A stretch of 21,857 nucleotides of DNA from a virus, in the IMG/VR virus record IMGVR_UViG_3300047554_000161, positions 1-21,857 of that record; one strand, written 5' to 3'. The notes beneath the pieces are model-generated. The model saw only the letters and a program-made list of their open reading frames with translations, was not told the origin of the DNA and ran no database searches. Made by a program: the position numbers and the translations under genes. Shown here one piece after another: positions 1-20,678 of this stretch. The stretch's first letter is position 1; the number at the start of each line of letters is the position of its first letter.

Positions 1-1127
1 CCATAGTCACCCTTGTTCTTTTTGAATAACATTAGTGGATAAACACTTATGTGGTCAACAGGATTATTTTTATCCATAATCCAATCATTGGTTTCTTCAA
101 AATACTCTATGGTGTCATAAGGTAATCCATAGATCAAACCAATGCCTATGTTTACTTTACCATTCCACTTTTCCTTTAACCAAGACAATCTATCTTTGAC
201 TTTGTTCGGCGCAAGACTTTTACCAATGGCAATACCACTTTGCTTATTAAGTGTTTCAACTCCAAAGAAAGTGCCAACTAATCCAGCTTCTCGTAGCAAG
301 TCAGCCTGATGTGGATACTTGTTCAACAAGTCTAGTCTAAGATAGCATGAAAAGTTAATCTTGAAAGGCAGAGATGTGAACAGTTTATGTATTGCTTCAA
401 TCTTGTCATTGTCGTCATTGAAGGTATCATCTGTTATGTAGTAGTTGGTACATCCAGTTGCTTCCCAAGTTTTTATCAAGTCATCTCTAACTTCTTCAAT
501 ATCTCTTAGGTAAGTACCTTTCTTTTTACCAATCAAAGAATACCCACAGAATTTACATTTGAAGATACACCCACGTGCCAACTCTAGCGGTAGAGCCTCT
601 CCGTCAAGAATAGAAAAGTCTTTTCTCCACCAATGAGTCTTGATGTTGTCCATCTTTGGCTCTGGGAATTGTTTGGAATCAAAAACCTTTGGTTGCTGTA
701 CGCCATCTGCCACACCCTTTGTATATTCAATGATAGCATCGTCTGCATATCCTAGGATGTATGTATCAATGCGAGCATCAGAAGCCCACAAGGATCTAAC
801 ACCACCGTAGATCAACTGCACATTAAACTGCTTGATGTATTGAAATAGTTTGTCTACATCTGCTGGTGTCATATGTGGGAATAGCGTTTGGTCTCCCCAG
901 AAAAAGGTAGAAGAAAAACCAACCCATAATGTATTGTCACTGATGTGAACACTCAATGCTTGTATAATTTCATCAACAGTAAAGTATTGAGTAAAGTCAA
1001 TAACTCTAGATGTATAACCAGCGTTTTCAAGAGCAGACGCTATTCTGTAAGAACCCAAGTTTCTTTGGATCTGAGAATAGGTTTCTGGAGACGTTGGTCC
1101 AGCAGCAATAATAATACAATCAATCAT
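1..1127 (-). CDS. Radical SAM enzyme with B12-binding-like N-terminal domain (partial, C-terminus beyond window)
   Basis: Reading from the ATG at 1127 gives 375 open codons up to the window edge, with no stop, so the C-terminus is missing. A CX3CX2C cluster (Cys187, Cys191, Cys194, within ARGCIFKCKFCGY) is the classic site for the radical SAM [4Fe-4S] cluster. Residues 1-110 (GSYRIASALENAGY, then alternating strands and helices) look like the cobalamin-binding-type domain of B12-radical SAM proteins, but no DxHxxG cobalamin motif is visible. A later stretch (GTFFGVETLN, about 290) fits the radical SAM barrel. Such enzymes cleave S-adenosylmethionine to start radical chemistry on an inert C-H or C-C bond. 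The start codon overlaps the upstream stop (TAATG), so it is the last visible gene of the modification operon. Family assignment is firm. A role in tailoring a modified DNA base is inferred from neighbours. Confidence 0.88.
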   Translation of the reverse strand, partial: MIDCIIIAAGPTSPETYSQIQRNLGSYRIASALENAGYTSRVIDFTQYFTVDEIIQALSVHISDNTLWVGFSSTFFWGDQTLFPHMTPADVDKLFQYIKQFNVQLIYGGVRSLWASDARIDTYILGYADDAIIEYTKGVADGVQQPKVFDSKQFPEPKMDNIKTHWWRKDFSILDGEALPLELARGCIFKCKFCGYSLIGKKKGTYLRDIEEVRDDLIKTWEATGCTNYYITDDTFNDDNDKIEAIHKLFTSLPFKINFSCYLRLDLLNKYPHQADLLREAGLVGTFFGVETLNKQSGIAIGKSLAPNKVKDRLSWLKEKWNGKVNIGIGLIYGLPYDTIEYFEETNDWIMDKNNPVDHISVYPLMLFKKNKGDY

Positions 1128-2146
1128 TAAAAGAATTCTTCTAAACCAACTTGAACAGGTTTCTCATCATCAAACAACCACTCTAGATTTTCCATCTTGC
1201 CACTACGCAAGAACAGTGGAAACTTTTCTTTGTCAATACCACGCTTGGAATCTAGACGTAAGTCAATAGTTTCGTTACGGGCTTGCCACATAACATTCCA
1301 ATCAATACCATGCCAACCGTCGCCTTCGCATTTGATAATCTCTTCAGCTTGGCGATCAAGATAGTATCCAAGATAACGACCATGATTTTCTCTAAAGATT
1401 TTCTTAAAAGAACACAGGCACGTTTCCATGGTAAAGAAATCAATTTGGTCTGTTAGCTCTGGGAATCTTCTTCGCGTTTCTTCCAGAATGTCTCTGGCTT
1501 GTACTTCAAGAGATCCATACTCGCTTCCAGTGAGTTTTCTATCATAATCGTCATCCTTGCCAAGGGCAAGTAGTAATCCATTACGATGAGAACGGGAACC
1601 ATCATAATCGTCCAACATGAGAGAAGTAGGAGTAACAAGCAAACCAGCAGTATGTTTAAGGTGCTGAAGATAAAACCAAGTGCTGTAACGCCCAAACTTA
1701 TGCAAGCTGTTTTTAAGTACTGACCACAACGCATCAAAGTTTTGCGTCTCATTATCTCCGTAGTACGATTCGAGTGTTTCACGTTGATCTTTCTTTCCAA
1801 TAAACTTTTGATACGATTCGAACATGGCAGGCAAGTGACCTTTGTTCCATTTTGTATCAGTTTGATATCTTAAACGCTTGTAGTTAGCAGTATTCCACTG
1901 CTCCATTCTATCAACAGTAGCCAACTCAAAGTCAGGAAACTCATTCATTAGAATCCAAGCTGTTGGTAGATAGTATGTGTTACCATATAACCAACACAAC
2001 CACAATCGTTGTTCATCGTTGTGTTCGTATCTCTTGTTCATGTAGTTGGTAGCCCAAACAGCTGGATCGCAGTCGTCATACTTTAACGACCATGCATACC
2101 AACGAATAAAGGCTTCACGTCGATTTTGTTTTAATCTATAATCCAT
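1127..2146 (-). CDS. Putative amino acid:DNA transferase / aGPT-pyrophosphorylase-like protein with clamp-binding-like tail
   Basis: This 339-residue protein appears all-helical, with no signal peptide or membrane segment. Conserved-looking blocks are WLYGNTYYLPTAW (52-64), FGRYSTWFYLQHLKHTAG (151-168), SRSHRNGLLLALGKDD (184-199) and HGRYLGYYLDRQAEEI (255-270). It resembles the helical superfamily of phage proteins called alpha-glutamyl/putrescinyl-thymine pyrophosphorylases, amino acid:DNA transferases and the helical domain of 5-hydroxymethyl-dU DNA kinase, which build hypermodified thymine. I recognise this from overall pattern only, so the family call is moderate and the exact reaction unknown. 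No P-loop kinase domain is present. The C-terminus GLEEFF matches the tail of the DNA polymerase in this window and may dock on the sliding clamp. Start and stop both overlap neighbours by one base (TAATG), between a GNAT-like gene and the radical SAM gene. Confidence 0.55.
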   Translation of the reverse strand: MDYRLKQNRREAFIRWYAWSLKYDDCDPAVWATNYMNKRYEHNDEQRLWLCWLYGNTYYLPTAWILMNEFPDFELATVDRMEQWNTANYKRLRYQTDTKWNKGHLPAMFESYQKFIGKKDQRETLESYYGDNETQNFDALWSVLKNSLHKFGRYSTWFYLQHLKHTAGLLVTPTSLMLDDYDGSRSHRNGLLLALGKDDDYDRKLTGSEYGSLEVQARDILEETRRRFPELTDQIDFFTMETCLCSFKKIFRENHGRYLGYYLDRQAEEIIKCEGDGWHGIDWNVMWQARNETIDLRLDSKRGIDKEKFPLFLRSGKMENLEWLFDDEKPVQVGLEEFF

Positions 2147-2787
2147 TATTTTAAAAAGTCTTCAAGAGATGGCTGATCCATCAGCGCGTCTCGTAGCCAT
2201 GCTTTACCAACTGTATCAATAGCAGCTTGAGTCTTTGCTTTCTTTTTGTCACCCCAAGTGTAAGACTCTAAACCTTCTCGACGGAATTGTTCACGAGCCT
2301 TTTGTGGCGGTAATGCTTGTAGTGGATTCACGATGGCGTTGTCTCTGTAAGCAATTTGCTCGGCACGTGTAGCGAATAGTGGTTGGTCGCTGCGGAGTGA
2401 ACCTGTTGGATCAACTGCCCAGAAGACCAAACCATTGCGTATGTGCCAGCTGACAGAGGTTGGTGTGCAAGAGATTTTAAGTCGTTGGACTTTTCGTTCT
2501 TCAACTGCATATTTGATCCAAGAGTCCCAGCACTTTGACGCATATCCTTTTCCTTCTTTACCTTCAACTGTAACGATTTCGTACAGATTTGCATAGCCAT
2601 CTCGATTGAATGTGGCAAAGATTAAAGAGACAACTTCACCGTTGTCTTCGAATGCCATTGGCAGATTCTTTTCATAATTATGAAAGCGAGTCCATAATGA
2701 ATGTGCAGCCGATAAGAACTTGGTGTTCTTACCAGCTGGACTTGAATCAATAATTTGTTGAACTTTAGTTGAGTTAATGAATATCAT
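2146..2787 (-). CDS. GNAT-like acyltransferase with clamp-binding-like tail
   Basis: This 213-residue protein has an N-terminal half like a GNAT fold. A strand at 51-60 (EVVSLIFATF) is followed by LYEIVTVEGKEGKGYASKCW (68-87), which fits the acetyl-CoA pyrophosphate-binding loop (x-x-G-x-G/A). Later come KISCTP and RNGLVFWAV (117-125), typical of GNAT strands 5-6. The C-terminal part (about 140-213) is basic and charged and of unknown function. The last residues, SLEDFLK, resemble the DNA polymerase tail. GNAT proteins move an acyl group from acyl-CoA to an amine. In thymine-hypermodifying phages, GNATs have been linked to base-modification clusters, so a modified base is a plausible substrate here, by inference. 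The gene overlaps the upstream amidotransferase by 14 bases and the downstream gene by one. The ATG at 2787 is the only good start. Confidence 0.65.
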   Translation of the reverse strand: MIFINSTKVQQIIDSSPAGKNTKFLSAAHSLWTRFHNYEKNLPMAFEDNGEVVSLIFATFNRDGYANLYEIVTVEGKEGKGYASKCWDSWIKYAVEERKVQRLKISCTPTSVSWHIRNGLVFWAVDPTGSLRSDQPLFATRAEQIAYRDNAIVNPLQALPPQKAREQFRREGLESYTWGDKKKAKTQAAIDTVGKAWLRDALMDQPSLEDFLK

Positions 2788-3484
2788 GTTGATAATCTAC
2801 AGCGCTTTTAATAGAGACTGCACGCAATTCCATTTTCAAGTCACCATCAAGTTTAATGTATGTATTCATTGGAACTTCCATAGTTGGAAGAAACAATCCA
2901 GCGCGTTGCGGAATATCAGCAGTAGAAGTAATTATACTACCATTAGTCATTGTAGTCAAATATAATGGTCGTTTGCCATTACGGTAAACAGTTACCTCTT
3001 TGGTAGATGCAATAAGTTGACAAACAGCCATGGACATATTACTGAACTCTTCTAGTGGACTTTTTGCGTGTAGCACCAATTCACTGTCGTTCTTTGTTTC
3101 AGTTTTATAACCGTACAACTCTTGCCACTTTTCTGGCAGTTCTTGGGTAATAACACCATTGTGAACAATAGCAACATTATCATTACCCAACGGTTGATTA
3201 TATTCCAAGTCGCTAGTTGAATAACGGCAGTGTCCAATCATATACAAGTTTCCATCTTCATTCAAGAATGATTTGAAGTTGTCGTTGTGCATATGTTTCT
3301 CAACGAATTGATCAGCTGGGATCGCTTCTTTGATTGTAACAAGGTTACCTTTATTCCAAGCAGGAATAAAAGAAATACCAGTGGCGTGCAAGCCACGAAT
3401 CTTTGATTCAACGAATACACGCTTTAAGGATTCAAAATCCTTCAGAGAAGGATTCTGTATAACTGCTCCAATAACTGCACACAT
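2774..3484 (-). CDS. Free-standing class II glutamine amidotransferase (Ntn hydrolase domain)
   Basis: At 236 residues this is just the glutaminase domain. Cys2, exposed after Met removal (MCAVIGAV), is the expected N-terminal nucleophile. RGLHATGISF (30-39) matches the RGxDSxGI motif, GHCRYST (84-90) matches GHxRxAT, HNG sits at 108-110 and NDSELV at 132-137. These are the family's catalytic and glutamine-binding blocks. Class II enzymes hydrolyse glutamine and pass ammonia to a partner synthase domain, as in GlmS, PurF and AsnB. No synthase domain is fused here, so the acceptor must be a separate protein or a small molecule. The stop overlaps the GNAT-like gene and the start overlaps the upstream oxygenase stop (TAATG). 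Supplying nitrogen for an amino or amide group on a modified base is my inference. Another possibility is a free glutaminase. Confidence 0.85.
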   Translation of the reverse strand: MCAVIGAVIQNPSLKDFESLKRVFVESKIRGLHATGISFIPAWNKGNLVTIKEAIPADQFVEKHMHNDNFKSFLNEDGNLYMIGHCRYSTSDLEYNQPLGNDNVAIVHNGVITQELPEKWQELYGYKTETKNDSELVLHAKSPLEEFSNMSMAVCQLIASTKEVTVYRNGKRPLYLTTMTNGSIITSTADIPQRAGLFLPTMEVPMNTYIKLDGDLKMELRAVSIKSAVDYQHDIH

Positions 3485-4086
3485 TATTTTAACTCAACTT
3501 TCATCATAGCTGGTAAGTTAGAGGCACCGAGAATACCACGGTAAAAAGAATTAAACCCTAAAGAAATTCTAGTTAAATCACTATTGTTCTGAGAAACGCC
3601 ATGTTTAATATGAGAAGGGAATAACAAAATGTTATTCTTCTGTACATTAATAATTTTAACTTGGGAATTATATTCGTGTGATTTAGAAATATCTGGAACT
3701 AACATATCATCTTCAGGTTTCATTAATACGAATGGCGCTGGGTTTTCTGTTAAATAAATAGCACCACTGATTATACTATTTCTATGTTTGTGTGTATGGT
3801 GGCTAGAACCTTTTGGGTTATAGTTGCTCCAAGACTGAGTCACATAAAGGTCAATATCATACCCTAATACATCTTTCACATAAACATTAAGATGTTTTGT
3901 TATTTGTTCTTTGAGGGAATTCAACTCAACAGCATCTAGTAAATAGGTTTCAAGTGACATATAATTATTATATACTAACTTCTCAGAAGCAGAAACTTGA
4001 TCGCGGATAAAGTTTGACTCACTCTCTGTTATATTTACATTAGAAATATAAACAGCAGTCGGAAACGCTTCTAACACTGAATGCAT
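3484..4086 (-). CDS. 2OG-Fe(II) oxygenase (HxH-type, similar to the TIGR02466 family)
   Basis: The 200-residue protein has the double-stranded beta-helix pattern of small phage 2-oxoglutarate/Fe(II) oxygenases. SSHHTHKHRNSIISGAIYL (94-112) gives the first two metal ligands (His97/His99 or His99/His101) and the SGxxYL strand. FPSHIKHGV (156-164) gives the distal His162, and R173 in LTRISL is the likely 2OG carboxylate ligand. Such proteins are common in marine T4-like phages, and their substrates are mostly unknown. It lies between the TET/JBP-like gene and the amidotransferase, with one-base TAATG overlaps on both sides. It is AT-rich compared with the TET/JBP-like gene: 20 and 19 G+C in the 60-base samples at 3901 and 3961, against 33 at 4201. 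That hints at separate acquisition. It lacks the clamp-like tail (ends MKVELK). Confidence 0.75.
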   Translation of the reverse strand: MHSVLEAFPTAVYISNVNITESESNFIRDQVSASEKLVYNNYMSLETYLLDAVELNSLKEQITKHLNVYVKDVLGYDIDLYVTQSWSNYNPKGSSHHTHKHRNSIISGAIYLTENPAPFVLMKPEDDMLVPDISKSHEYNSQVKIINVQKNNILLFPSHIKHGVSQNNSDLTRISLGFNSFYRGILGASNLPAMMKVELK

Positions 4087-5480
4087 TAGAAGAAACTTTC
4101 AAGTGAATTAGATTTATCTGACTCTGGGTGATACTTCAGCAACACTTCTGCGCCAAGTTTTTTCTCGCAGTAGTCATACCACTCTTGACTTTCCCACATA
4201 CCAGCAGAAACACCATTCCAAAGATGACGCTCAGAGCCGTCTTCGTTTCGGTGCCCTGCATGCTCTTTGTTCAAACGACGAGATTCAACAAACTCATAAC
4301 GGCAGTCTTCATACTCTTTTGAACCAAGTTCAAGCATCTTTTCACGGAAATAACAAACCAGTGAAATACGTTCGGCTTCTTCATCCAACAATTCAATTGG
4401 AGTGTTACCGTGCATAACTTCGTGGTTGTTGATCAACAGCAAATCGCCTGGACGTACATTGACAGCAACGCGATACTCTGGAGCAATTAGATAACCACCC
4501 TTGTAATTGCCGTTGTTAGAAAGAACCAACAAGTTAGAAAGACCACTGTTCAAGTCACCTGCATCAAAGTGTGCTGCAGTACGGAATGTTTTGTTAACAG
4601 TGATTGTAGTGAATGGAGTTTCTGGAACCAAGAATTGTGGATCAAGTTTCTTGGCAGCTTCCATTTGATTACTGTAACGCCATGGCATCAACTCTTTAAA
4701 ACCTTTGGCAAGAGTCTGTAGGAATGGGAATGCCATCTCAAACTTCTCACGATTCTTTTCAGTATAAGAAGTTGCACGACCATAAGGGATACGTGGGTAA
4801 CGATCAAACCAACCAGCAATACCAGAGAACACACCGTTGGCATAAGTTGTTTGACAAACATATTTCTGTACAACTCGCTTGGCTTCGGCGCGTTGTTCAT
4901 CCAAACTCAATTTACGAGTACGCTCAACCCAATCATCGAAAGTGAAATTGTCCTTTTTAACAGCCTGAATACTCCAAACATTGTTCTTATTAGAAGGCTG
5001 TTCTTTCTTGTTGGCGTGTTGACGCTTTAGTTCTTCGATCGGGTCTTCACCAAAGATGTTGGCTTTGGGATTAGAAAAGTAATCAATCACATCGTACTCA
5101 TACTCAGTGACCCACTCTCTGTTACCCAACTTGTCTTTTCGTGGACCAGCTGCGATGCCACGGTTTTGAGTCTCAACAGCTGCTTCGCGTAGACCAACAT
5201 ATGCAGCCAACTGTTCTTCTTTTGAGAAGAAGTTCTTACGGAACTTAAACGCAATACGCATTTCATCCGTACCTTTAGGGCAGCTGGCGCAGTCTTTGTC
5301 TGTATCGCAAGATGCTTGTTGAGCAATGTCGCAGTTTACTGGCATGTAAACGTCGGCGTCATAATCAACTAGAATATCATAATGTGATTCGTCTACAAAC
5401 TGACCCAGAAGATGAGAACAGTCGTGCTTTTTATCAGCCACGATAATTTTAACATTTCTACCTTCATCTATTTTACTCAT
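4086..5480 (-). CDS. TET/JBP-family DNA-base dioxygenase with N-terminal Cys cluster and clamp-binding-like tail
   Basis: The protein has 464 residues. The catalytic core lies at about 285-385. TVNKTFRTAAHFDAGD (294-309) supplies His304-x-Asp306. GLSNLLVL and GGYLIAPEYRVAVNVRPGD (328-346) follow. NNHEVMHGNTPI (351-362) carries the distal His (357, less likely 353), and ERISLVCYFRE (370-380) carries the 2OG-binding Arg371. This block order matches the TET/JBP branch of 2-oxoglutarate/Fe(II) dioxygenases, which oxidise the methyl group of thymine (JBP) or 5-methylcytosine (TET) in DNA. Nearby I see no cytosine methyltransferase, which makes thymine the likelier target, by inference. Cys50, 58, 64 and 67 form a possible metal site. 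The C-terminus NSLESFF resembles the polymerase tail. A strong AAGGAGAAG ribosome site precedes the ATG, 11 bases after the helicase stop. Confidence 0.82.
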   Translation of the reverse strand: MSKIDEGRNVKIIVADKKHDCSHLLGQFVDESHYDILVDYDADVYMPVNCDIAQQASCDTDKDCASCPKGTDEMRIAFKFRKNFFSKEEQLAAYVGLREAAVETQNRGIAAGPRKDKLGNREWVTEYEYDVIDYFSNPKANIFGEDPIEELKRQHANKKEQPSNKNNVWSIQAVKKDNFTFDDWVERTRKLSLDEQRAEAKRVVQKYVCQTTYANGVFSGIAGWFDRYPRIPYGRATSYTEKNREKFEMAFPFLQTLAKGFKELMPWRYSNQMEAAKKLDPQFLVPETPFTTITVNKTFRTAAHFDAGDLNSGLSNLLVLSNNGNYKGGYLIAPEYRVAVNVRPGDLLLINNHEVMHGNTPIELLDEEAERISLVCYFREKMLELGSKEYEDCRYEFVESRRLNKEHAGHRNEDGSERHLWNGVSAGMWESQEWYDYCEKKLGAEVLLKYHPESDKSNSLESFF

Positions 5481-5491
5481 TTATCTTCTCC

Positions 5492-6889
5492 TTAAAACTT
5501 GAAACTGTCGTAATTGTCTTCTCTATGTATTCGTTTACCAAAAGAACTTTTATCAAAAACAGGTCCATCATCCTTTTCCTGTCCAGAATCTGACAATCCT
5601 TGTTGTGCAGATTCTTCAACATCATATAACTTCATCTTGGAACGATCGATACCAACTACGAATCGTTTATAGAAGCTAGGGTCATTATAACGGTTCTTCA
5701 ATTGCTTGACGATAATCTGATTCAAGGCTTCTAACTCTTCGTTTGATACCAACGCAAACATAAAGTCGGCAGTGGCAGGTAGACCAAACGATTCAGATGT
5801 ATCTTCAAGACCTGGATCTGAATTGGAATAACCAGAACGAGTAGTTTGTGTAGCCGAAAGAATCGGAACATTATACTCAACAGCTAATCCACGTAGTTCT
5901 TCTGCAATGCTCTTGATATATGTATAAGAGTTCACAGAGCCACCTTGCTTCATACGCTGAGACGCACAAATGTTCAAGTAGTCAATCATAATAATATCAG
6001 GGGCGAAATCTCGTTTGAGTTTCAGTTCTTCCAACAGCGCTCTAAAGTGACCAGCATGAGCACTTGCAGTTGGATATTCTTTGATGATCAGTTTACCTTT
6101 GGTCTTGTTGGCAATCTTTTGAAGACGATTATCAAAGATGTCTTTATCAACAACCTTCAATTCATCCATTGTCAAGTTCAACAAGTTGGCATCGATACGT
6201 TCAGCGATACGTTCTTCAGCCATTTCCATGGTGATGTAAAGCACATTACGTCCTTGTGTCAAACAGCCAGCAGCCACGTGACACATGAACAATGATTTAC
6301 CAACACCAGTACCAGCCAGTGCAATGTTTAGAGTTTTCTTGGACAGACCACCTTTAGTGATCTTGTTGAACATCTCCAAGTCGAAAGCAATCTTTTCTTC
6401 AACGCGATGGTAGTAATCAAAACGTGCATCGTGATCTCCCAAGTAATCGTGACCAACGTGACTATCAAAACAAACAGACAACGCTTCTGAAAGAATACTT
6501 GGGATAGCGTCTTGTGTATGTTGCTTGTCTCTGCCGTCAATAATCTTGATTGAATCTACAATCGCATTATAGACAGCTTTGTCTTTACAAAACTTTTCTG
6601 TGTTAGTGACTAACCAATCACTGTTGATTGGAGCTTGTGCTAATCCATCAATGACTTCGTTAATCTCAACCAATTCTTTATCGATAAGATCAGTACGGTT
6701 ACTGACCTCAATGGACAAGATTTCTTTGGTTGCTGGTTTATTATACTTGTTAAAGAATTCGATAATCTCTGAAATGATCACCGACTCTTTTCTGTCGGCA
6801 AAGTAACTCTTCTTAAGGAATGGAATTACTTTGCGACAGTACTGTTCATCATAAATTAAATTTGCTAGAATCGTCTGTTCAATTCTCAT
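5492..6889 (-). CDS. 41: Replicative DNA helicase, DnaB/gp41-type
   Basis: The 465-residue product has the two-domain layout of DnaB-type hexameric helicases: a helical N-terminal domain (about 1-140) and a RecA-like ATPase. The Walker A motif AGTGVGKS is at 192-199 (Lys198), and the Walker B region is DIIMIDYLNI near 300, followed by SATQTTRSG. Length and context fit T4 gp41, which unwinds DNA at the fork and works with a primase. I chose the ATG at 6889 over a GTG nine bases upstream; it overlaps the end of the preceding gene by 11 bases. The neighbours are UvsX upstream and the putative modification cassette downstream. The tail NYDSFKF is only loosely like the clamp-binding peptides elsewhere in the window, and I do not claim it as one. 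Confidence 0.95.
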   Translation of the reverse strand: MRIEQTILANLIYDEQYCRKVIPFLKKSYFADRKESVIISEIIEFFNKYNKPATKEILSIEVSNRTDLIDKELVEINEVIDGLAQAPINSDWLVTNTEKFCKDKAVYNAIVDSIKIIDGRDKQHTQDAIPSILSEALSVCFDSHVGHDYLGDHDARFDYYHRVEEKIAFDLEMFNKITKGGLSKKTLNIALAGTGVGKSLFMCHVAAGCLTQGRNVLYITMEMAEERIAERIDANLLNLTMDELKVVDKDIFDNRLQKIANKTKGKLIIKEYPTASAHAGHFRALLEELKLKRDFAPDIIMIDYLNICASQRMKQGGSVNSYTYIKSIAEELRGLAVEYNVPILSATQTTRSGYSNSDPGLEDTSESFGLPATADFMFALVSNEELEALNQIIVKQLKNRYNDPSFYKRFVVGIDRSKMKLYDVEESAQQGLSDSGQEKDDGPVFDKSSFGKRIHREDNYDSFKF

Positions 6890-7181
6890 CAATACCACCA
6901 GTATATGAAATACTATTATTCTGCAATTCTTCGAGAATAATAAATTTCAGTAGTTCACCGATGTACATTTCAAATTCTTCGGTCTTATAAGTGACGCCAG
7001 CATCTTCATGTACATCATACTCAAAGTTCATCTTGCAAGTGTCATCAACACCATCGTTGATTTCCTCAAATGAAACTTTCCCATAAGAGAAAATTATACC
7101 TGAGAATGGACCAGAGGTCAACTTAACTGCCTCTACTCCACTCTTGCGAGACTCTACAACAATGTAAGGTTTGTCACTCAT
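6879..7181 (-). CDS. Conserved phage protein of unknown function between uvsX and helicase
   Basis: This 100-residue acidic protein has no motif that I recognise. It begins with strands (YIVVES, AVKLTSG, GIIFSYGKVSFEEI) and ends with a helix (MYIGELLKFIILEELQ, about 72-87), suggesting a small alpha/beta fold. It overlaps the uvsX stop by eight bases and the helicase start by eleven, so the three are probably translationally coupled. T4-like phages of marine bacteria often carry a small gene at this place, so it may help recombination or helicase loading, but nothing in the sequence proves this. Confidence 0.75.
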   Translation of the reverse strand: MSDKPYIVVESRKSGVEAVKLTSGPFSGIIFSYGKVSFEEINDGVDDTCKMNFEYDVHEDAGVTYKTEEFEMYIGELLKFIILEELQNNSISYTGGIDEN

Positions 7182-8244
7182 CGAATTCTAGGTTTTCTAA
7201 TGCTTTGTCAAGGTCTTCGCTTTGCACCATATCGACTGTACCGATAGAGTATTTGTCCTTCACAAAATCATAGAAAGACTTTTGCTGCAAGATAGGTAGC
7301 CAGAAGTCTTTACTATCTGTATCTTTGATACGATACTTCTTGTCTTCAATGACACCAGTTTCTAAATCTACCTTTGAATACCAACCATTGCTAGGCTTGA
7401 CAACATGTCCTGACTCGAGTGCAAGATCAAGTAGACCGCTCCACTTGCTAATGCCACCGTCAAAAGATACGGAAACAGGGATCTTAGATTTTTCTTTAAC
7501 ATGACGAGATTTTTCAACGTTGATAATAAAGTTGTAACCTACAACTTCAGTGCCTTCTTTTTCTTGCTGGCGACCAAGGATATAAATGTTATCAGCAGAG
7601 TAGTATGAACCAGTACCACCACCAACAATGTCTTTAGGATACAAACCAATTTCTTTGTAGGTGTGGTTAACAACTACCATTGGAATGTCTTTAAGCGTCA
7701 AGTGTGGAGTAATCATTCGGAACAATGACTTCAACTGCTTGGCACGACTCATGTCTGCAACAGACTTACCATCTAGGGCGTCTTCAACTTCTTTCTTAGA
7801 AGCCAAGTTACCAATAGAGTCAATGATAATGATAACGTGTTCACCACGTTCGATGTTTTGCAGCTGCTGCATGCAGTCAAACTTCAATTGTTCAATGTCG
7901 GTGATAGGAACATGAACAACTCTTTTAGTATTAATCCCAAAAGCGTCAAAGTAAGACTGAGGAGTACCAAACTCAGAATCATAAAAGAGAACAACAGCAT
8001 CGTCATATTTGTCCTGATAGGCTTTTGCCATTAGCAAAGAGAATGCAGTCTTAAAGTGCTTTGATGGACCAGCCCACATAGTAAGACCTGGAGTTAGACC
8101 ACCATCAAGGCGACCAGCCAGCGCTACGTTAATGACTGGGATTGAAGTAGGAATCATATCCTTCTTCTTAAAGAACTTGGAATCCGATAGGATAGAAGTA
8201 TCTTTGATTGTAGAATTCTTTCGGATTTTATCTAGAATACTCAT
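7174..8244 (-). CDS. uvsX: UvsX RecA-like recombinase
   Basis: The 356-residue protein has the phage RecA-type ATPase core. The unusual Walker A motif GPSKHFKT (59-66) is characteristic of T4 UvsX-like proteins, and VIIIIDSIGNLASKKE near 140 gives the Walker B strand. VVNHTYKEIG and the GGGTGSYYSADNIYIL segment fit the DNA-binding loop and subunit-interface regions. UvsX forms filaments on single-stranded DNA and drives strand exchange for recombination-dependent replication and repair. The length is close to T4 UvsX (about 390). The start overlaps the thioredoxin stop by one base (TAATG). It is the second gene of the operon that starts at the promoter at 8522-8550. Confidence 0.95.
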   Translation of the reverse strand: MSILDKIRKNSTIKDTSILSDSKFFKKKDMIPTSIPVINVALAGRLDGGLTPGLTMWAGPSKHFKTAFSLLMAKAYQDKYDDAVVLFYDSEFGTPQSYFDAFGINTKRVVHVPITDIEQLKFDCMQQLQNIERGEHVIIIIDSIGNLASKKEVEDALDGKSVADMSRAKQLKSLFRMITPHLTLKDIPMVVVNHTYKEIGLYPKDIVGGGTGSYYSADNIYILGRQQEKEGTEVVGYNFIINVEKSRHVKEKSKIPVSVSFDGGISKWSGLLDLALESGHVVKPSNGWYSKVDLETGVIEDKKYRIKDTDSKDFWLPILQQKSFYDFVKDKYSIGTVDMVQSEDLDKALENLEFDE

Positions 8245-8498
8245 TATTCACCTTTAATGAAAGTCAGTAGAGCTTGTTCGTTCATATATCCAGAACGAGA
8301 GCGAATAGTTGTACCAGTGTCATCAACGATAACTACCATTGGTACGCCGCGAACATTATATTGTTTGGCGACTTCCATGTTCTGGTCGATGTCAATGTCT
8401 TCGATTGTGATATCAATCTTGTCGCCAGCTTCTTGAATGACACGTGACAGCATCTTGCAAGGTTGACACCATTCGGCGTAAAATTTTAACATTTTCAT
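8244..8498 (-). CDS. Small thioredoxin
   Basis: The 84-residue thioredoxin-fold protein carries the redox motif WCQPC (Cys11, Cys14) after the strand MLKFYAE, and the cis-proline of GVP at residue 53 before the strand MVVIVDD. It lacks the long N-terminal extension of bacterial thioredoxin (about 105 aa), as is common in phage-encoded versions. It likely reduces disulfides of a phage or host enzyme; ribonucleotide reductase is the usual partner, but none is seen in this window. A strong TAGGAGAAA site precedes the ATG. It is the first gene after the promoter at 8522-8550 and is linked to uvsX by TAATG. A second in-frame ATG two codons later is possible. Confidence 0.9.
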   Translation of the reverse strand: MKMLKFYAEWCQPCKMLSRVIQEAGDKIDITIEDIDIDQNMEVAKQYNVRGVPMVVIVDDTGTTIRSRSGYMNEQALLTFIKGE

Positions 8499-8521
8499 AT
8501 ATTTTCTCCTAGTATTTTAGT

Positions 8522-8550
8522 ATTATACAGTATATTTTATTGTAAGGCAA
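8522..8550 (-). promoter_or_regulatory. Sigma-70-like promoter for the thioredoxin-uvsX-helicase-modification operon
   Basis: On the minus strand a TTGCCT box (8550-8545) is followed, after a 17-base spacer, by a perfect TATAAT (8527-8522). Both lie in the only gap in this region, 52 bases between the stop of the Asp/Asn-hydroxylase-like gene and the thioredoxin start. The ribosome site TAGGAGAA follows. The sequence around the -10 box, CTGTATAATA, also occurs at the promoter at 14871-14899. This would make genes 8498 to 1 one transcription unit. The element is visible; activity is inferred. Confidence 0.75.
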
Positions 8551-9096
8551 TTATGTTTTCTTAGAACGTGGTACATCGAACACGAATGTAACTCTGACAT
8601 TATCACCAATGTTCTGTGCACCGTGTGGCAATTTATTGTTAAACCAAAGCAAAGTTCCAGGCTCTACTGTAACAGATTCATCTCCCACAGTGTATATGTA
8701 TCTTCCTTGAATTGAAAGATGATAGCGATCCTTTGTTCGGTAGTAATCACCGATGTCAATGTGTGTTCCAACTACACCACCAACTGGCAGTGATAAGAAA
8801 CCACATCGACTGACTTTCTTGAAATGTCGTTTGACAAACCCAATAACTTCAGTGTGATGTTTGATTGCTGGAGTTGGAATGCACAGTTCGGTGTCTCCAA
8901 CATAGTCATCTATGTTTTCGATACCACCCATAATTAACTGCAACACACCAGCTTGAACATCTGGGAATCCATACGTAAGCATGGACTTGACGCCATCAAC
9001 TCGCGTTTGAATTCCCCAGTCTTCTGGATGTTTCTCCAATTGTGCCAAAATCTTTGACACATTGAGCCCAGTTTTGATTATCTTAATGTTATCCAA
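8551..9096 (-). CDS. Aspartyl/asparaginyl beta-hydroxylase-like 2OG-Fe(II) oxygenase
   Basis: Numbered from the chosen start, this is 181 residues with an iron-binding His112-x-Asp114 in GTHIDIGDYY, distal His158 in LPHGAQN and Arg168 in RVTFVFD. RYHLSI, VTVEPGTLLWF and the final strand follow the cupin-like fold of the Asp/Asn hydroxylase family. The substrate is unknown. No ATG is available near the N-terminus. I place the start at the TTG at 9096, because a GGAAG ribosome-binding-like site precedes it by eight bases and it overlaps the end of the polymerase gene slightly. The frame stays open to a TTG at 9138, which would add a basic stretch and overlap the polymerase by 50 bases. A GTG at 9063 is a third option. 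It is the last gene before the promoter at 8522-8550. Confidence 0.78.
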   Translation of the reverse strand: MDNIKIIKTGLNVSKILAQLEKHPEDWGIQTRVDGVKSMLTYGFPDVQAGVLQLIMGGIENIDDYVGDTELCIPTPAIKHHTEVIGFVKRHFKKVSRCGFLSLPVGGVVGTHIDIGDYYRTKDRYHLSIQGRYIYTVGDESVTVEPGTLLWFNNKLPHGAQNIGDNVRVTFVFDVPRSKKT

Positions 9097-11575
9097 AGAA
9101 ATCTTCCAGTGAACTTTCCTCTTGCGTCTTCCAACCAATTGGTTCGATTACGTTTTGAAGAGCATCTAAAAACACCTTTTCAAATTGAAGGTCATAGTCT
9201 ATGTATGATTCCAAATTAAACTCTTTTGGCAATTCACTGGTGAATGCGATAACGTCTTCTTGGAATGGATTGGGTTTTCTGACATAAACAAATTTGATCT
9301 TGTCACCATCACGAATGGCTTGGTACTTGTTATCAATACCAAAACGCTTGCAGTAGTGGTTGAACAGTAAGGCACCACGAACGTGGATTGGTGTACCCTT
9401 AGTGTAGATTGGAGAACCAGCGTACTGTTTCATACCATTAACGCCACGAGGAAATGCAATCTCCTGTACAGGCAGCTTGTTGAACACTTCCCTAAAGTCA
9501 TTAACATACTTATGTAGTTTCTTTTCGTCGCCTTCTAGAATAACATTGATAGAGTCTTTTAACTTATCACGAATAACAGCTGGCGTTGAAGACTTGACCA
9601 TCTCAAGACCCATAACTTTGATCTTGGGTTTTGCGTATTGAACACCTTCAGAGTTGTGCACGTTTAGAACATAACGCTTTTTGGCAGTCCAGATACCTTT
9701 GTCGGCTAGAACTTCGCGCTTCATAACCATCTTCTGGCTATATGCGTTCATGTACTTTGCCAACTCTTGATAACCGTCATCAATGAACGGCTGAAGAACT
9801 TCTTCGCAAACTTTGTCCATGAACTTAATCTTGGCATTGGTGTCTTTACCCTCACAAACCTTTTCGACTAGATTCTCTAGTGTCAAGTAGATTGAGTCAG
9901 TGTCGATCGCAACAACGTAATCCTTACCATCAGTCTTCATAGTCTTGTTCATGAATGCGTTTAGCTTGTTAGCCATCCAACGAATAGACAATTGACCTGA
10001 AGTTGTAATACCTTCAGCCATACGAATATCAAAGTAACGGAAATACTGATTACCCATGGCACCGTAAGCAGAGTTAAGAGCAATCTTCATAGCCATCTGC
10101 AAGTTATTCAATCGTGAGATGTCTTTCAACAAGTGCTTTTTAGTCTTGTCTTTTTCATACTCTTGTTGAACACCAAGCATCTGCTTCTTAAACTTGGAAC
10201 GATCCTTGTACATCTTTTCCATCAACTCAGGCATAAAACCTTTGATGTCTTTACGATAGCACCAACCGTTTGCAGTTAAAGCCAAGTCACGACGATGTGC
10301 ATAGCTAGTATCAACTTCTTGGTTCAGCAGCTTTTCTACCGTGACTGGAATCTTCTCATGAGTCAAAGTCTCTGGTGAGATATTGTACTGCATAATCAAG
10401 TGAGGGTACAGTGAGTTCAAGTCAAAGGATGCCATCCACTTATGTAAACCAATCAACGGATCTTTAACGAATGCGCCTTCGAATTGAGAGTCTTTGCCAG
10501 AATAAGACTTGGCTGGAATAACAATACGCTTTGTTCGCAAATGGTTATAGATGATAGAATCCCACATACGAACTTGAGAGTAAACATCTTCTGGATTGAT
10601 CTTGGCATTGTAAGCCATAGTCAAGTGCAGTTCGATTAGACGCATCTTGTCTTCCATGCGGTCAACCAATTCAACGTCGTGGATGTTATACTCAACAAAC
10701 TGTTGCCAGTGGTTGGTGTAAAACTCTCGGAATGTATCTCCTGGGTTTTCTTTCTTCTTGTCGCCCAATTCTTGCTCAGCGATGTAGTCAAGTCGATAAG
10801 ACTCTTGCTTGGAGTATGTATACTTTTTATACAACTCAAGATAATCAAGCTGACTAATACCAGTGATATCGTAGTGGATCTCTTCGTTACCTTTGATGAA
10901 TGTCTTACGCTCATTCACCATACCCCAAGGGCTAATTTTATTGGCAAAGGTGTCGCCAAGTTCACGGGCAATACGACGAACCAAATATGGCACGTCAAAG
11001 AAGTCAGTGTTCCAACCAGTGATAATGTCTGGATAGTTTTGTTGCCACCAGATCATAAACTCTTTGAGCAAGTGTTGCTCATCACGACAGTTGATATAAA
11101 CTACATCATCACGATTGTGAACGAATGCGCCAATACCAAAAGTGATGATGCGTTTAGAGATTAGATCTTTAACAGTAATCAACAACACTTCTTCATTGGC
11201 TGTGCGAATGTCTGGGAATCCAGACTCGGTCTTGGTTTCAATGTCAATGGTAAATACCTTGAGCAATTCCATATCCCAATTGACATCACCTTCATAGGTG
11301 TCACTGATATATTGATATGCGTAGTTGGTATTACCAAACACTGAAAAGCCTTGGACGCCATCATAACGCTTGACAAAATCTCGCGTTTCTCTGATCGATC
11401 CAGGCTTTACTTCATCTACGTAGATACCTTCAAGAGTTTTCCAATTAGATTGACTCTTGGAGGTAACGTAGAGTGTTGGGTAAAAGTCTACTTTACGATT
11501 GTATGCTCTACCTTTATCATAGCCTCGAACGAAAATCTTATCGCCGATGGCATATACTGATGTGTAAAATTCCAT
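9089..11575 (-). CDS. 43: Family B DNA polymerase (gp43)
   Basis: The 828-residue polymerase is shorter than T4 gp43 (about 898). The proofreading domain shows FTIDIET (Asp111, Glu113), WNTDFFDVPYL and YNIHDVELVDRMED. The polymerase domain shows motif A DLNSLYP (Asp385), motif B KIALNSAYGAMGN and motif C AIDTDSIYL (Asp558, Asp560). Motif C has Ile where many family B enzymes have Gly (YGDTDS). The C-terminus ESSLEDFFG corresponds to the hydrophobic tail by which T4/RB69 polymerase binds the sliding clamp. The start overlaps the SGNH-hydrolase stop by one base (TAATG). It acts at the replication fork with gp45, gp44, gp62 and gp41, which are also in this window. Confidence 0.98.
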   Translation of the reverse strand: MEFYTSVYAIGDKIFVRGYDKGRAYNRKVDFYPTLYVTSKSQSNWKTLEGIYVDEVKPGSIRETRDFVKRYDGVQGFSVFGNTNYAYQYISDTYEGDVNWDMELLKVFTIDIETKTESGFPDIRTANEEVLLITVKDLISKRIITFGIGAFVHNRDDVVYINCRDEQHLLKEFMIWWQQNYPDIITGWNTDFFDVPYLVRRIARELGDTFANKISPWGMVNERKTFIKGNEEIHYDITGISQLDYLELYKKYTYSKQESYRLDYIAEQELGDKKKENPGDTFREFYTNHWQQFVEYNIHDVELVDRMEDKMRLIELHLTMAYNAKINPEDVYSQVRMWDSIIYNHLRTKRIVIPAKSYSGKDSQFEGAFVKDPLIGLHKWMASFDLNSLYPHLIMQYNISPETLTHEKIPVTVEKLLNQEVDTSYAHRRDLALTANGWCYRKDIKGFMPELMEKMYKDRSKFKKQMLGVQQEYEKDKTKKHLLKDISRLNNLQMAMKIALNSAYGAMGNQYFRYFDIRMAEGITTSGQLSIRWMANKLNAFMNKTMKTDGKDYVVAIDTDSIYLTLENLVEKVCEGKDTNAKIKFMDKVCEEVLQPFIDDGYQELAKYMNAYSQKMVMKREVLADKGIWTAKKRYVLNVHNSEGVQYAKPKIKVMGLEMVKSSTPAVIRDKLKDSINVILEGDEKKLHKYVNDFREVFNKLPVQEIAFPRGVNGMKQYAGSPIYTKGTPIHVRGALLFNHYCKRFGIDNKYQAIRDGDKIKFVYVRKPNPFQEDVIAFTSELPKEFNLESYIDYDLQFEKVFLDALQNVIEPIGWKTQEESSLEDFFG

Positions 11576-16958: not shown

Positions 16959-17374
16959 TTTGTTTTCTTTCCTATGTTATATTTAGCTACCAATTCCCAT
17001 TGATCCTTTTCTTTGTAAGAAACGACCTTAATTTGAGACAAAGATGCTTTTTGTTCAGACTTCTTAGTATCTAGGATCTTCAATAAATCCCAATCTTGAA
17101 GCAATGAAGCAATAGCATTTCTACGCTCTACATCACCTTGGGTAATGTTCGATTCTTTACCGTCTAATGCAAATAGTTCTTTGAAATGTACGATAAAGTA
17201 TCTGCCTTGCTTGTGTAAGATATGGCAAGACTGATATAATTTATTCTCTTTTCTGGAAGCGATACCAATTCTGGTAAGAGTTTCGCGGACTTTTAGGAAG
17301 TTGTCTGGTTCTGGCAGACTCACCTCAAGCATGGACTCAGGAGTCCAATCGTAGTAAACCATCTCGATAGTCAT
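16955..17374 (-). CDS. regA: RegA translational repressor
   Basis: The 139-residue protein matches T4 RegA (122 aa) in overall layout. It opens with a segment of the type MVYYDWTPESMLEVSLPEPD, continues FLKVRETLTRIGIASRK, then LYQSCHILHKQGRYFIVHFKELFALDG and an NITQGDVERRNAIASLLQDW helix, and ends in a basic tail (KYNIGKKTK). RegA binds the ribosome-binding regions of early phage messages, including clamp and clamp-loader genes, and lowers their translation. Its position directly after gp62 is the classic T4 order. The ATG overlaps the gp62 stop (TAATG). Confidence 0.94.
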   Translation of the reverse strand: MTIEMVYYDWTPESMLEVSLPEPDNFLKVRETLTRIGIASRKENKLYQSCHILHKQGRYFIVHFKELFALDGKESNITQGDVERRNAIASLLQDWDLLKILDTKKSEQKASLSQIKVVSYKEKDQWELVAKYNIGKKTK

Positions 17375-17751
17375 TATTTTCCACCTTTATATAATTTTTC
17401 TTTTATCATAGTAAGTTGTTCATCTGAAAGGACAGTTAGTGCCTCTTTCGCCTTTTCGTCAGAGTACTTAAAGTACTCTTTAACTAAGAGCATGGATTCT
17501 GAGCTGGCATCTTTTTTAGCCCACTTACTAAATCGCTTGCGCTTAGGTATAGTATTTAGGAAAAAGAAAAACTGCCAGTCCTTATCGATGAAGCTGAGAC
17601 GGTTCATCTCATTAGCATACATGACGGTGTCTGGAAAATATGATAATCCTCGGTTTACAATATAAGGTAAGTAGTCCTTTGAAGCTGTTGGGTCTTCGAA
17701 TAAATTTCTTTTGTTATCACAAATCGCATTAATAAAGTCAAAAGGTGTCAT
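17374..17751 (-). CDS. 62: Clamp loader small subunit (gp62-like)
   Basis: The 125-residue protein begins TPFDFINAICDNKRNLFED, includes YLPYIVNRGLSYFPDTVMYANEMNR and an aromatic patch WQFFFFLNTIPKRKRFSKW, and ends with a helix. This pattern and its place between gp44 and RegA identify the small clamp-loader subunit. T4 gp62 is longer (187); marine T4-like phages have a shortened form. One gp62 with four gp44 subunits loads the gp45 clamp. The ATG overlaps the upstream 57-aa gene stop (ATGA) and its own stop overlaps the RegA start (TAATG). Confidence 0.92.
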   Translation of the reverse strand: MTPFDFINAICDNKRNLFEDPTASKDYLPYIVNRGLSYFPDTVMYANEMNRLSFIDKDWQFFFFLNTIPKRKRFSKWAKKDASSESMLLVKEYFKYSDEKAKEALTVLSDEQLTMIKEKLYKGGK

Positions 17752-18254: not shown

Positions 18255-19208
18255 TCACTTAAATTTACAGTTAGCCATGATCTCAGTAAGAGCAGCCATG
18301 ATATTCAATTCTTGATCAGCCACGAACGCTGCCTTGTATTGATAGTCAGCCAAGATAAGAACCATCTGTGGAATGCTAGGCGGTTCCATGTAAGTAGTAG
18401 ATGTATCATAAAACTGACGGAAAAGACCAGTAATATCAGCATCTGAATTCTTGGCAACCCAAGAACGAACTTCAGTAAAGTTCTTTTCTTTCAAGAATCC
18501 AATCAGAGTCTTGTAAGACTCTTCTGACATATTGATAAGAATACCAGAATCAATCTTACCCGCCACAGAGTATTTCTGTAGTTCATTCAGGATTCGGCGA
18601 TAGTCAGGAAAGTGTTTGGTAGTTAGCTCAGCAACAGACTTTGGATCAAACTCAATACCTTCTTGCTTCAAGATTTTAGTTGCGCGCTTAAAGAAAGTAG
18701 CAGCAATCTCTTGCTTGTCTTTGTTCTCAATCTTAAAATCTACGTTGGCACAACGTGAACGTAGTGGCTCAATGATTTTATTCTTGAAGTTACATGTAAA
18801 GATAAAGCGACAGTTAGCAGAGAATTCTTCCATGAAAGAACGCAGTGCTGGTTGGACAGAATCTGATGTCATGTAATCAGCTTCGTCAATAATAACAACC
18901 TTCTTGGCATCAGTCAATGAAACAGTCGAAGCAAATGCCGTGATTGTAGTTCTAAGAGTATCAATCTTACGACCCTCATCAGAACCGTTGATCATCAGAT
19001 ACTCTGCACCAATTTCATTACACAAGGCTTTAGCCACAGTTGTCTTACCAACACCAGCTGTTCCAGAAAACAAAAAGTGTGGCAGTTCACCTTGAGCAAT
19101 ATATTCCCTGAATGTCTTTTTCAGAGACTCTGGTAGAACACAATCATCAATTTTCTGTGGGCGATACTTTTCAACCCACAGAAATTGTTCTTCACGGCTA
19201 TCAATCAT
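18255..19208 (-). CDS. 44: Clamp loader large subunit, AAA+ ATPase (gp44)
   Basis: The 317-residue protein is almost the length of T4 gp44 (319). It begins WVEKYRPQKIDDCVLP, typical of clamp loaders. It has Walker A GTAGVGKT (49-56, Lys55), Walker B VVIIDEAD (104-111), sensor 1 FTCN (137-140) and the SRC arginine-finger motif (151-153). With gp62 it opens gp45 and closes it around primer-template DNA using ATP. It follows the halogenase after a 12-base gap; in T4 gp44 follows gp45 directly, so the halogenase gene interrupts the usual pair. Confidence 0.97.
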   Translation of the reverse strand: MIDSREEQFLWVEKYRPQKIDDCVLPESLKKTFREYIAQGELPHFLFSGTAGVGKTTVAKALCNEIGAEYLMINGSDEGRKIDTLRTTITAFASTVSLTDAKKVVIIDEADYMTSDSVQPALRSFMEEFSANCRFIFTCNFKNKIIEPLRSRCANVDFKIENKDKQEIAATFFKRATKILKQEGIEFDPKSVAELTTKHFPDYRRILNELQKYSVAGKIDSGILINMSEESYKTLIGFLKEKNFTEVRSWVAKNSDADITGLFRQFYDTSTTYMEPPSIPQMVLILADYQYKAAFVADQELNIMAALTEIMANCKFK

Positions 19209-19220
19209 TATAAAACTCCA

Positions 19221-20678
19221 TTATTCAAATTTCAAAACATATCTATTCTGCTCTAGCAAAGTCTTGTGTTCAATCAATGCTAATTTAGAAAGCTCACTCA
19301 AGTAATTATTATACATCGACATCTGATTGGAGACAACTTTTTCTCCATGTGACTGCATAAAATTACTACTAATAGTATTCACATCAAATAAACCAAGACC
19401 ATCCATAACTTGTATCCAGTTTGTTTCACTAAACATAGTCCAGTTACCAGAAAAGTACATTCTAGTTGGCATTGCACTCTTGAATGTTTCTAAGTTTTCT
19501 CTAATAAAATCTGTCTTGGTTATTTCGTTTTTCACTGTCTTCCAAAAATCACTATCTGATCGTTTTGTCATATAGTGTAGTTGAACAAAGTCAACAATAT
19601 TATCAAATGAAGAAATAAACTCTTTATTGTAATGGTCAGAAGCCTTTCGGTTGACTACCCAATACTCAAAAGACTGAACAAACCCCATAGCTTGTAAAAT
19701 AGAATTACCAATACTGGATGCTTCTAACGGCTCAACGAATGATGCAGACAATCCAATAGAAAGACAATTATTAATCCAAAATCTATCTACTCTACCAGCT
19801 TCAAATTTAATATCTTTGGCAATATTAACTTGTTCGGTGTATACAGATTGCACCTCATCATGGGCTTGAGATGAATTTATAAAATCATCACAGAATACAT
19901 ATCCATTACCATAACGTCCACGTGTGGAAATTCTCCAATTCCATCCAGAAGACAATGCTCTAGATAATGTATATGGAGACAACTGAGAAACATCATCAGT
20001 TGGGAATGCCAATGCATGATTCATTGGAAGATATTTCTTATAAGAAATCCATTTAGCTCCGAGTTTAGAAGCTAAAAATTTCTTAAATCCAGTGCTATCA
20101 ATAAAGAAATCAGCATCGAATACTTCACCAGATTCAGAAACTACAGAACCAATATCACCATTATCTAAGATATTTACATCTGTTAAAGTTGTCTTGACGA
20201 TGTCAATATCACGCTCTGTGCATTTCTTATGTAAGTATTCATTTAACTTAAATGTATTAAAATGGTATTGGTATGTTGTGTTGATTCCACCAACCATTCT
20301 AACCATATCTGTACCAACGGTAACATCAACAAGTTGAATACCTTTGTGTATACAAGTCTTTTCTAATAAGTGGTCTTCTTGGGTTTGCCAAAAAGGTTGA
20401 CCAATCGCATGAAAATAGCTTTTATCATCTCCATTCCAATTCTCAAACTTGATGCCTTTCTTCAAGGCACCATCAGTCTCGCGAACTAATTCTCGATTGT
20501 CGAGACCTACATAATCACAAAACTGAGACCAATGCTCAGTCGATCCCTCTCCAACCCCAATAATACCAATATCTGCAGATTCGATAATGGTTATGGGGTA
20601 GAGTGGATATGCTTTACGTATAATCAAGGCAGAAATCAGACCTGCAGTCCCACCACCTACGATTACAAATTTCTTCAT
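19221..20678 (-). CDS. Flavin-dependent tryptophan-type halogenase
   Basis: The 485-residue protein has the FAD-binding motif GGGTAG at 8-13 and the halogenase signature GWNWRI (245-250), close to the family WxWxIP. A Lys in GIKFENW (Lys77) aligns with the catalytic lysine of PrnA/RebH, and Glu319 in EPLEASSIGNS corresponds to the conserved PLES glutamate. These enzymes use FADH2, O2 and chloride or bromide to halogenate tryptophan or related aromatics. The substrate is unknown. Tryptophan halogenases have been noted in marine T4-like phages. It is AT-rich: 19 G+C in each of the 60-base samples at 19801 and 20041, against 26 at 18841 in gp44. That suggests later insertion between gp45 and gp44. 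It begins three bases after the clamp stop. Confidence 0.9.
   Translation of the reverse strand: MKKFVIVGGGTAGLISALIIRKAYPLYPITIIESADIGIIGVGEGSTEHWSQFCDYVGLDNRELVRETDGALKKGIKFENWNGDDKSYFHAIGQPFWQTQEDHLLEKTCIHKGIQLVDVTVGTDMVRMVGGINTTYQYHFNTFKLNEYLHKKCTERDIDIVKTTLTDVNILDNGDIGSVVSESGEVFDADFFIDSTGFKKFLASKLGAKWISYKKYLPMNHALAFPTDDVSQLSPYTLSRALSSGWNWRISTRGRYGNGYVFCDDFINSSQAHDEVQSVYTEQVNIAKDIKFEAGRVDRFWINNCLSIGLSASFVEPLEASSIGNSILQAMGFVQSFEYWVVNRKASDHYNKEFISSFDNIVDFVQLHYMTKRSDSDFWKTVKNEITKTDFIRENLETFKSAMPTRMYFSGNWTMFSETNWIQVMDGLGLFDVNTISSNFMQSHGEKVVSNQMSMYNNYLSELSKLALIEHKTLLEQNRYVLKFE

Follow-up and report, generated by a model that had tools for sequence, protein, structure and literature searches.

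Clamp-binding-like C-terminal tails on the polymerase and DNA-modification enzymes of an uncultured T4-like phage

In phage T4, gp55 and gp33 are established clamp-tail proteins, and the tails of gp43, gp55 and gp33 are interchangeable (PMC2988020). The C-terminus of gp55, which serves late transcription, is a proven epitope for the clamp (PMC2988020). Cryo-electron microscopy places the last six residues of T4 gp43 (SLDFLF) in a hydrophobic pocket that lies between the domains of gp45 (PMC12746103), and two basic residues of the RB69 gp45 pocket meet the acidic peptide (PMC3012046). T4 alpha-glucosyltransferase (alpha-GT) also binds gp45 by pull-down (PMC13216743; the interaction was first reported by Sommer 2004). 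The thymidine hypermodification of phage ViI takes place after replication and runs from a hydroxymethyl base through phosphorylation to amine transfer (PMC6449724). The present analysis concerns a 21.9 kb piece of the genome of an uncultured T4-like phage (IMG/VR record IMGVR_UViG_3300047554_000161, positions 1 to 21,857; this whole stretch is called the window), in which the DNA polymerase gp43 and three enzymes of a DNA-modification operon end in similar peptides. It is highly likely from comparative sequence evidence that these peptides are gp45 clamp-interacting peptides that recruit post-replicative hypermodification enzymes.

Like the clamp peptides of T4 gp43, gp55 and gp33, the window tails are (near-)C-terminal sequences of the type S-L-[DE]-x-hydrophobic-hydrophobic on a linker. 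However, they occur here on base-modifying enzymes of unrelated folds, and there on a polymerase and transcription factors. T4 alpha-GT likewise modifies phage DNA and binds the clamp, and replication-coupled modification was hypothesised for it, but it has no gp43-like tail and is a single enzyme, whereas several enzymes of one pathway are involved here. In eukaryotes, the base-modifying enzyme DNMT1 has a clamp-binding motif that targets it to newly replicated DNA (PMC9690074); that system uses cellular PCNA for maintenance methylation, in contrast to phage gp45 and hypermodification. The 5-hmdU DNA kinase and amino acid:DNA transferase (ADDT) pathway of ViI uses the same enzyme families (PF18747, PF18723, and PF18724), but clamp tails are unmentioned for it in the literature searched, and in the window phage TET/JBP is the oxidising enzyme. 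Earlier work has established the clamp peptides of gp43, gp55 and gp33, the contact of alpha-GT with gp45, and the recruitment of DNMT1 to PCNA. Clamp tails on phage DNA-modifying enzymes are apparently unreported so far: the open literature searched holds no report of them on phage TET, ADDT, 5-hmdU kinase or glycosyltransferase, although key primary papers lie outside that search and priority is uncertain. The four tailed proteins and their proposed partner are encoded as follows.

9089-11575, minus strand: gp43 DNA polymerase (Pfam DNA_pol_B); tail SLEDFFG at 9092-9112, protein end ..EESSLEDFFG
4086-5480, minus strand: TET/JBP oxygenase (Pfam Tet_JBP, PF12851); tail SLESFF at 4089-4106, protein end ..KSNSLESFF
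2146-2787, minus strand: GNAT-like acetyltransferase (weak Pfam match); tail SLEDFLK at 2149-2169, protein end ..DQPSLEDFLK
1127-2146, minus strand: ADDT (Pfam PF18724); tail GLEEFF at 1130-1147, protein end ..QVGLEEFF
20682-21338, minus strand: gp45 sliding clamp (Pfam gp45-slide_C), proposed partner of all four tails

Translation confirmed the four peptides as the original prediction had given them, all at the extreme C-terminus. The ligase, exonuclease, RegA, Hsp20 and amidotransferase lack the tail, as had been claimed, and so do both small 2-oxoglutarate (2OG) oxygenases and every other protein of the window. The pattern [SGTAN]L[DE]xF, placed at most two residues from the end and defined after the tails had been seen, is found at the C-terminus of only these four among the 28 proteins of the window; its internal rate in eight relatives predicts 0.02. 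The corresponding Poisson P of about 7e-9 is optimistic, since the pattern was set post hoc. In the eight relatives, 30 of 1790 C-termini carry the pattern, whereas shuffled tails average 0.9 with a maximum of 5. The earlier attribution of the convergent tails to selection rather than chance is clearly borne out. The codons are unlike among the four tails (Leu is CTG, CTT, CTT, and TTA), which indicates convergence at the amino-acid level and not recent copying of DNA among the tails.

Homologues of the window proteins were taken from IMG/VR, with simple open reading frame (ORF) calls for the genes of the relatives, and gave 40 distinct C-termini for the polymerase and 66-81 for each of the three enzymes. 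Their tails are SLEDFFG in the polymerase (columns near-invariant), SLExFF or [SA]LEEFFG in TET, SLE[ED]FL in GNAT, and GLExF in ADDT. In TET (alignment A1), F463/F464 are invariant and L460/E461 near-invariant; in ADDT (A2), G334, L335, E336 and F338 are invariant; in GNAT (A3), P206, S207, L208, E209, F211, and L212 are invariant. Column entropy is 0 bits at F463/F464 of TET versus 1.2-2.9 in the linker just upstream, and 0 bits at the G, L and F of ADDT versus 1.3-2.6 upstream. Both linkers rank among the most variable parts of their proteins, and the contrast is weaker in GNAT, where the region upstream of the tail is itself conserved. A more distant lineage, with 42-43% (TET), 47-52% (ADDT) and 50% (GNAT) identity to the window proteins, keeps all three tails as SLEDFFA / TLDEFFG, GLEAFFV / GLEEFYGIN and NTLESFF / SLEAFL, respectively. 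Loss of the tail in close homologues, named beforehand as a refuting outcome, is therefore not what the alignments show. The amidotransferase and 2OG oxygenase of the operon are tail-less in homologues too. In three near relatives (G003, G004, and G009; L201:17605-19015 in G004), a different GNAT takes the place of the GNAT gene, with the looser tails DLASFI, NLEGF, and LDFHSFL, and is accompanied by a 291-aa protein with no Pfam match; the operon thus exchanges its late steps. For TET and GNAT, AlphaFold models built on 24-sequence alignments reached mean predicted local distance difference test scores of 50 and 62, respectively, with the tails in low-confidence stretches, and were set aside as poor.

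Moreover, the tails co-vary with the polymerase tail in other phages that encode gp45. TET and ADDT homologues in annotated phages were located by whole-protein similarity and not by tail, the polymerase and gp45 were then found for each record, and enzyme families outside the window were assigned by Pfam. Selection was partly biased: the tails helped to draw attention to the C48C1 Dam and to the glycosyltransferases of DLP6 and Cr30, but played no part in the choice of ADDT, TET and the kinases. Beyond TET, ADDT and GNAT, tails occur on two 5-hmdU DNA kinase families, a TET-associated glycosyltransferase (TAGT), and one Dam. The tails agree within a phage and differ between phages, as listed here.

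Vibrio phage D506: polymerase ARKLW, ADDT TRKLW, HMUD2 kinase TKKLW, HMUDK_hel kinase TKRLW
Vi01: polymerase VNLLSMM, ADDT VNLMSLL, HMUD2 VSLLGLM, HMUDK_hel VNLLDRL
Cygsa01: polymerase SVMDFF, ADDT DLMGFF, kinases NVFDLF and SVLDLF
Stenotrophomonas phage DLP6: polymerase TLDSFF, TET TLGDFF, TAGT DLSSFF
Caulobacter phage Cr30: polymerase DLSSLF, glycosyltransferase-like (TAGT) DLSKLF
C48C1: polymerase TLEDFF, TET SLEEFF, Dam STLDAFF

In a test that reassigned polymerase tails between lineages, P was 1e-3 with seven lineages and 3e-5 with a set of nine that includes T4 and the mismatched phiA8-29. In genome-wide ranking by tail, most such enzymes fall within the best 1-2% of their own genome. 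Their likeness to their own gp43 tail lies above chance and above that to the tails of other phages, with the exception of Cr30 ADDT, Cr30 TET and the phiA8-29 enzymes. The Vibrio phages K475 and 207E48.1 were examined in the expectation of a match, and their polymerase, ADDT and both kinases all end in [KR][KR]LW, while the neighbouring thymidylate synthase, dNMP kinase and NTP pyrophosphohydrolase, which work at the nucleotide level, have no tail. Both share the D506 lineage, so the confirmation stands within one lineage. The clamp gp45 was found in all six tailed phages searched; five gp45-less phages carry no tail, but have TET and ADDT proteins of a different architecture as well.

T4 itself provides a calibration. 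When the C-terminal residues of all 269 T4 ORFs are scored for likeness to the gp43 tail, gp55 ranks first and gp33 second after gp43 itself, and this return of precisely the two established proteins serves as a positive control. Most near relatives of the window phage have gp55 homologues with S/N-L-D-x-F-I close to the C-terminus. In more distant loci, most gp55 copies end in SDLS[GASN]FFEE, a few kilobases from the tailed TET, GNAT and ADDT. The gp33 homologues of the window clade end in ..KLDV and were dropped as a control.

The gp45 of the window has T4 and RB69 gp45 as its best solved relatives (E about 1e-22). Eleven lineages of gp45 were aligned, with pocket residues taken from PMC3012046 and with uncertainty in the alignment of the distant clamps. 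In the lineages with basic tails (D506, phiA8-29, and Vi01), the loops lining the pocket are rich in acidic residues; D506, for instance, has PPEEPPVED where the window has PQKSITFPN. These three have the three lowest net loop charges, one of 165 possible assignments, and are related to each other. Even though its polymerase and enzyme tails mismatch, phiA8-29 obeys this pattern, with a pocket loop acidic like that of the RKLW-tailed Vibrio phages. Only the basic/acidic split is significant in this comparison. Given the uncertain alignment, the related lineages and the non-significant correlation over all lineages reported below, loop charge is treated as supporting evidence.

Taken together, the modification enzymes and the polymerase very probably attach to one and the same sliding clamp and are thereby delivered to DNA. 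The S/G-L-E-x-F-[FL] peptide of the polymerase, TET/JBP, ADDT and GNAT, held on a short variable linker, would dock in the hydrophobic pocket of gp45 in the manner of T4 gp43, gp55, and gp33. Once loaded at primer ends, the clamp stays on replicated DNA and would most probably hold several modification enzymes by their tails. TET would oxidise the base, ADDT would install an amino-acid-like group, and GNAT would acylate that group. The tail would be a mark of enzymes that act on the DNA polymer, which assigns GNAT to DNA itself, where it probably acylates the group installed by ADDT. The untailed amidotransferase, small oxygenase and radical SAM enzyme would perform small-molecule or precursor chemistry or work through partners. 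Physical binding to gp45, the order of the chemical steps and the coupling to the fork are what we infer from these comparisons, and the enzymes may act on new DNA behind the fork. The original proposal that modifying enzymes ride on the clamp is strongly supported by conserved tails, the match to the own polymerase, the gp55 epitope and gp45 loop charge. Its extension to the radical SAM enzyme fails, as the complete gene in a 99%-identical contig ends in QYKRMIGVRC and has no such tail.

Several observations weigh against clamp docking through the tails. In the ranking of T4 ORFs, neither alpha-GT, which ends in ..FDIITK, nor beta-GT has a gp43-like tail. Alpha-GT presumably contacts gp45 through another surface, and its binding without a tail means that the tail is not the sole route to the clamp. 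Across all lineages, loop charge and tail charge are not significantly correlated (rho -0.52, P 0.10). Cr30 ADDT mismatches its own polymerase tail and Cr30 TET matches it weakly; the enzymes of Aeromonas phage phiA8-29 (G015) end in KKLW/KRLW and its polymerase in VLKFFK. Within the window clade, ADDT tails (GLExF) score below TET or GNAT tails. Cyanophage Dams, examined as a further case, mostly have no tail. In addition, similar endings on a baseplate protein and a structural-looking protein show that the motif alone is no proof. These are the T4_baseplate protein ending in GLESFF in two relatives and a conserved protein ending in APLDFF; both look structural and were left uncounted. Also uncounted among genome-wide motif matches were RNase H (LDEIEEF), whose end lies inside its Pfam domain, and thioredoxin, whose end lies inside the fold.

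It is possible, though less likely, that the tails bind gp45 for ends other than coupling to replication, such as competition with the polymerase or the late RNA polymerase, timing relative to late transcription, or a general rise in the local concentration of enzyme on DNA. A tail of the same kind serves late transcription in gp55, and a 2026 paper found that the alpha-GT–gp45 contact does not set the share of alpha-glucosylation or the alpha/beta ratio in T4 (PMC13216743), so that this contact failed to explain the alpha-glucosylation share. On the other hand, the tails are carried by post-replicative DNA-modification enzymes and not by the neighbouring nucleotide enzymes. This explanation is compatible with the first step of the mechanism proposed above, the docking on gp45. 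It is improbable that the shared tail binds another polymerase partner instead, namely the clamp loader gp44/62, gp32, or a hub to the replisome. Co-variation alone demonstrates just a shared, co-evolving partner, but in T4 the tails that gp43, gp55 and gp33 have at this position dock on gp45, the T4 ranking recovers exactly the latter two, and the gp45 pocket loops change charge along with the tails. Chance or fold-conserved endings with no common function, for which the domain-internal end of RNase H and the look-alike GLESFF and APLDFF endings might speak, are scarcely credible in view of the excess over shuffled tails and the invariant tails behind variable linkers, and are close to refuted, as single enzyme families change their tail type along with the polymerase.

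With regard to family assignments, the protein first described as transferase-like matches Pfam ADDT 'Amino acid:DNA transferase' (E 4e-21, 76.3 bits versus a curated cut-off of 26.2), and the TET call matches Pfam Tet_JBP (E 2e-26, 92.9 bits versus 34.9). The GNAT assignment is weak, with a best E of 1e-4, 21.6 bits for PF00583 versus a cut-off of 20.7, and PF12746 under its cut-off. Sequence search found no solved relatives of TET or ADDT, and a search of the annotated phage collection with GNAT gave no match. No HMUDK_hel match was obtained in the window phage, and the control genomes of the same search were likewise empty. The replication genes of the window are gp45, gp44, gp62, RegA, ligase, gp43, UvsX, and gp41. 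Its DNA-modification operon comprises the TET/JBP oxygenase, a small 2OG oxygenase, the amidotransferase, the GNAT-like enzyme, ADDT, and the radical SAM enzyme. The remaining features are given below, where Pfam Phage_clamp_A and Gp44_lid cover both loader genes.

3-1127, minus strand: radical SAM gene (Pfam Radical_SAM), truncated by the contig end
2774-3484, minus strand: amidotransferase of the same operon, tail-less
3484-4086, minus strand: 2OG oxygenase of the same operon, tail-less
5492-6898, minus strand: gp41 helicase, with its own conserved C-terminal end, unlike the polymerase tail (F-x-G-[FW]-K-F in relatives; NNWKF in Vibrio phages)
8551-9138, minus strand: small Asp-hydroxylase-like ORF, whose listed TTG start falls within the polymerase gene, near its end (overlap about 50 bases); the true start may lie downstream
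17374-17751, minus strand: clamp loader gp62
18255-19208, minus strand: clamp loader gp44
19221-20678, minus strand: tryptophan-halogenase-like flavoprotein (PF04820, E 3e-99), between the gp44 and gp45 genes

Three observations concern other gp45 phages. The C48C1 Dam-type methyltransferase (L351:14480-15364) lies directly after the polymerase gene and ends in STLDAFFG, and most of its cyanophage homologues are tail-less and encoded beside clamp loader genes. The Cys-rich family phrog_4789 (70-103 aa) has a C-terminal tail that co-varies with the polymerase tail: VNLLSLMRK in Vi01 (L324:11355-11567), KTKRLW in D506 (L307:17591-17890), and NSLLDFF in Cygsa01 (L319:14399-14710). The family is predicted to be a client of the clamp and may act as a cofactor of late transcription. 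A large-terminase-looking protein of Cygsa01 (PP179332, 1-1710) ends in SLDDFFNN; given the gp17-gp55 contacts reported in T4 (PMC9026906), it may be a packaging motor that docks on the clamp.

For gp45 phages in general, it is reasonably probable that the replication clamp serves as the platform for DNA hypermodification, with the polymer-acting steps (oxidation, phosphorylation, amine transfer, glycosylation, acylation, and sometimes methylation) carrying a phage-specific tail dialect that co-evolves with gp45. With such co-evolution, the tail would predict orphan genes acting on DNA or the clamp, including phrog_4789. It would offer a means, from sequence only, to separate DNA-acting enzymes from nucleotide or cofactor enzymes and to find unrecognised clamp clients in gp45 phages. 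The natural variants SLEDFF, VNLLSMM and RKLW allow the study of peptide-pocket co-evolution, and replication-coupled phage DNA modification, an old question from T4 alpha-GT, becomes testable. If true, the recruitment of modification enzymes by the clamp would explain how phage DNA is modified fast and completely ahead of host restriction, since the ring that marks replicated DNA would also deliver the enzymes.

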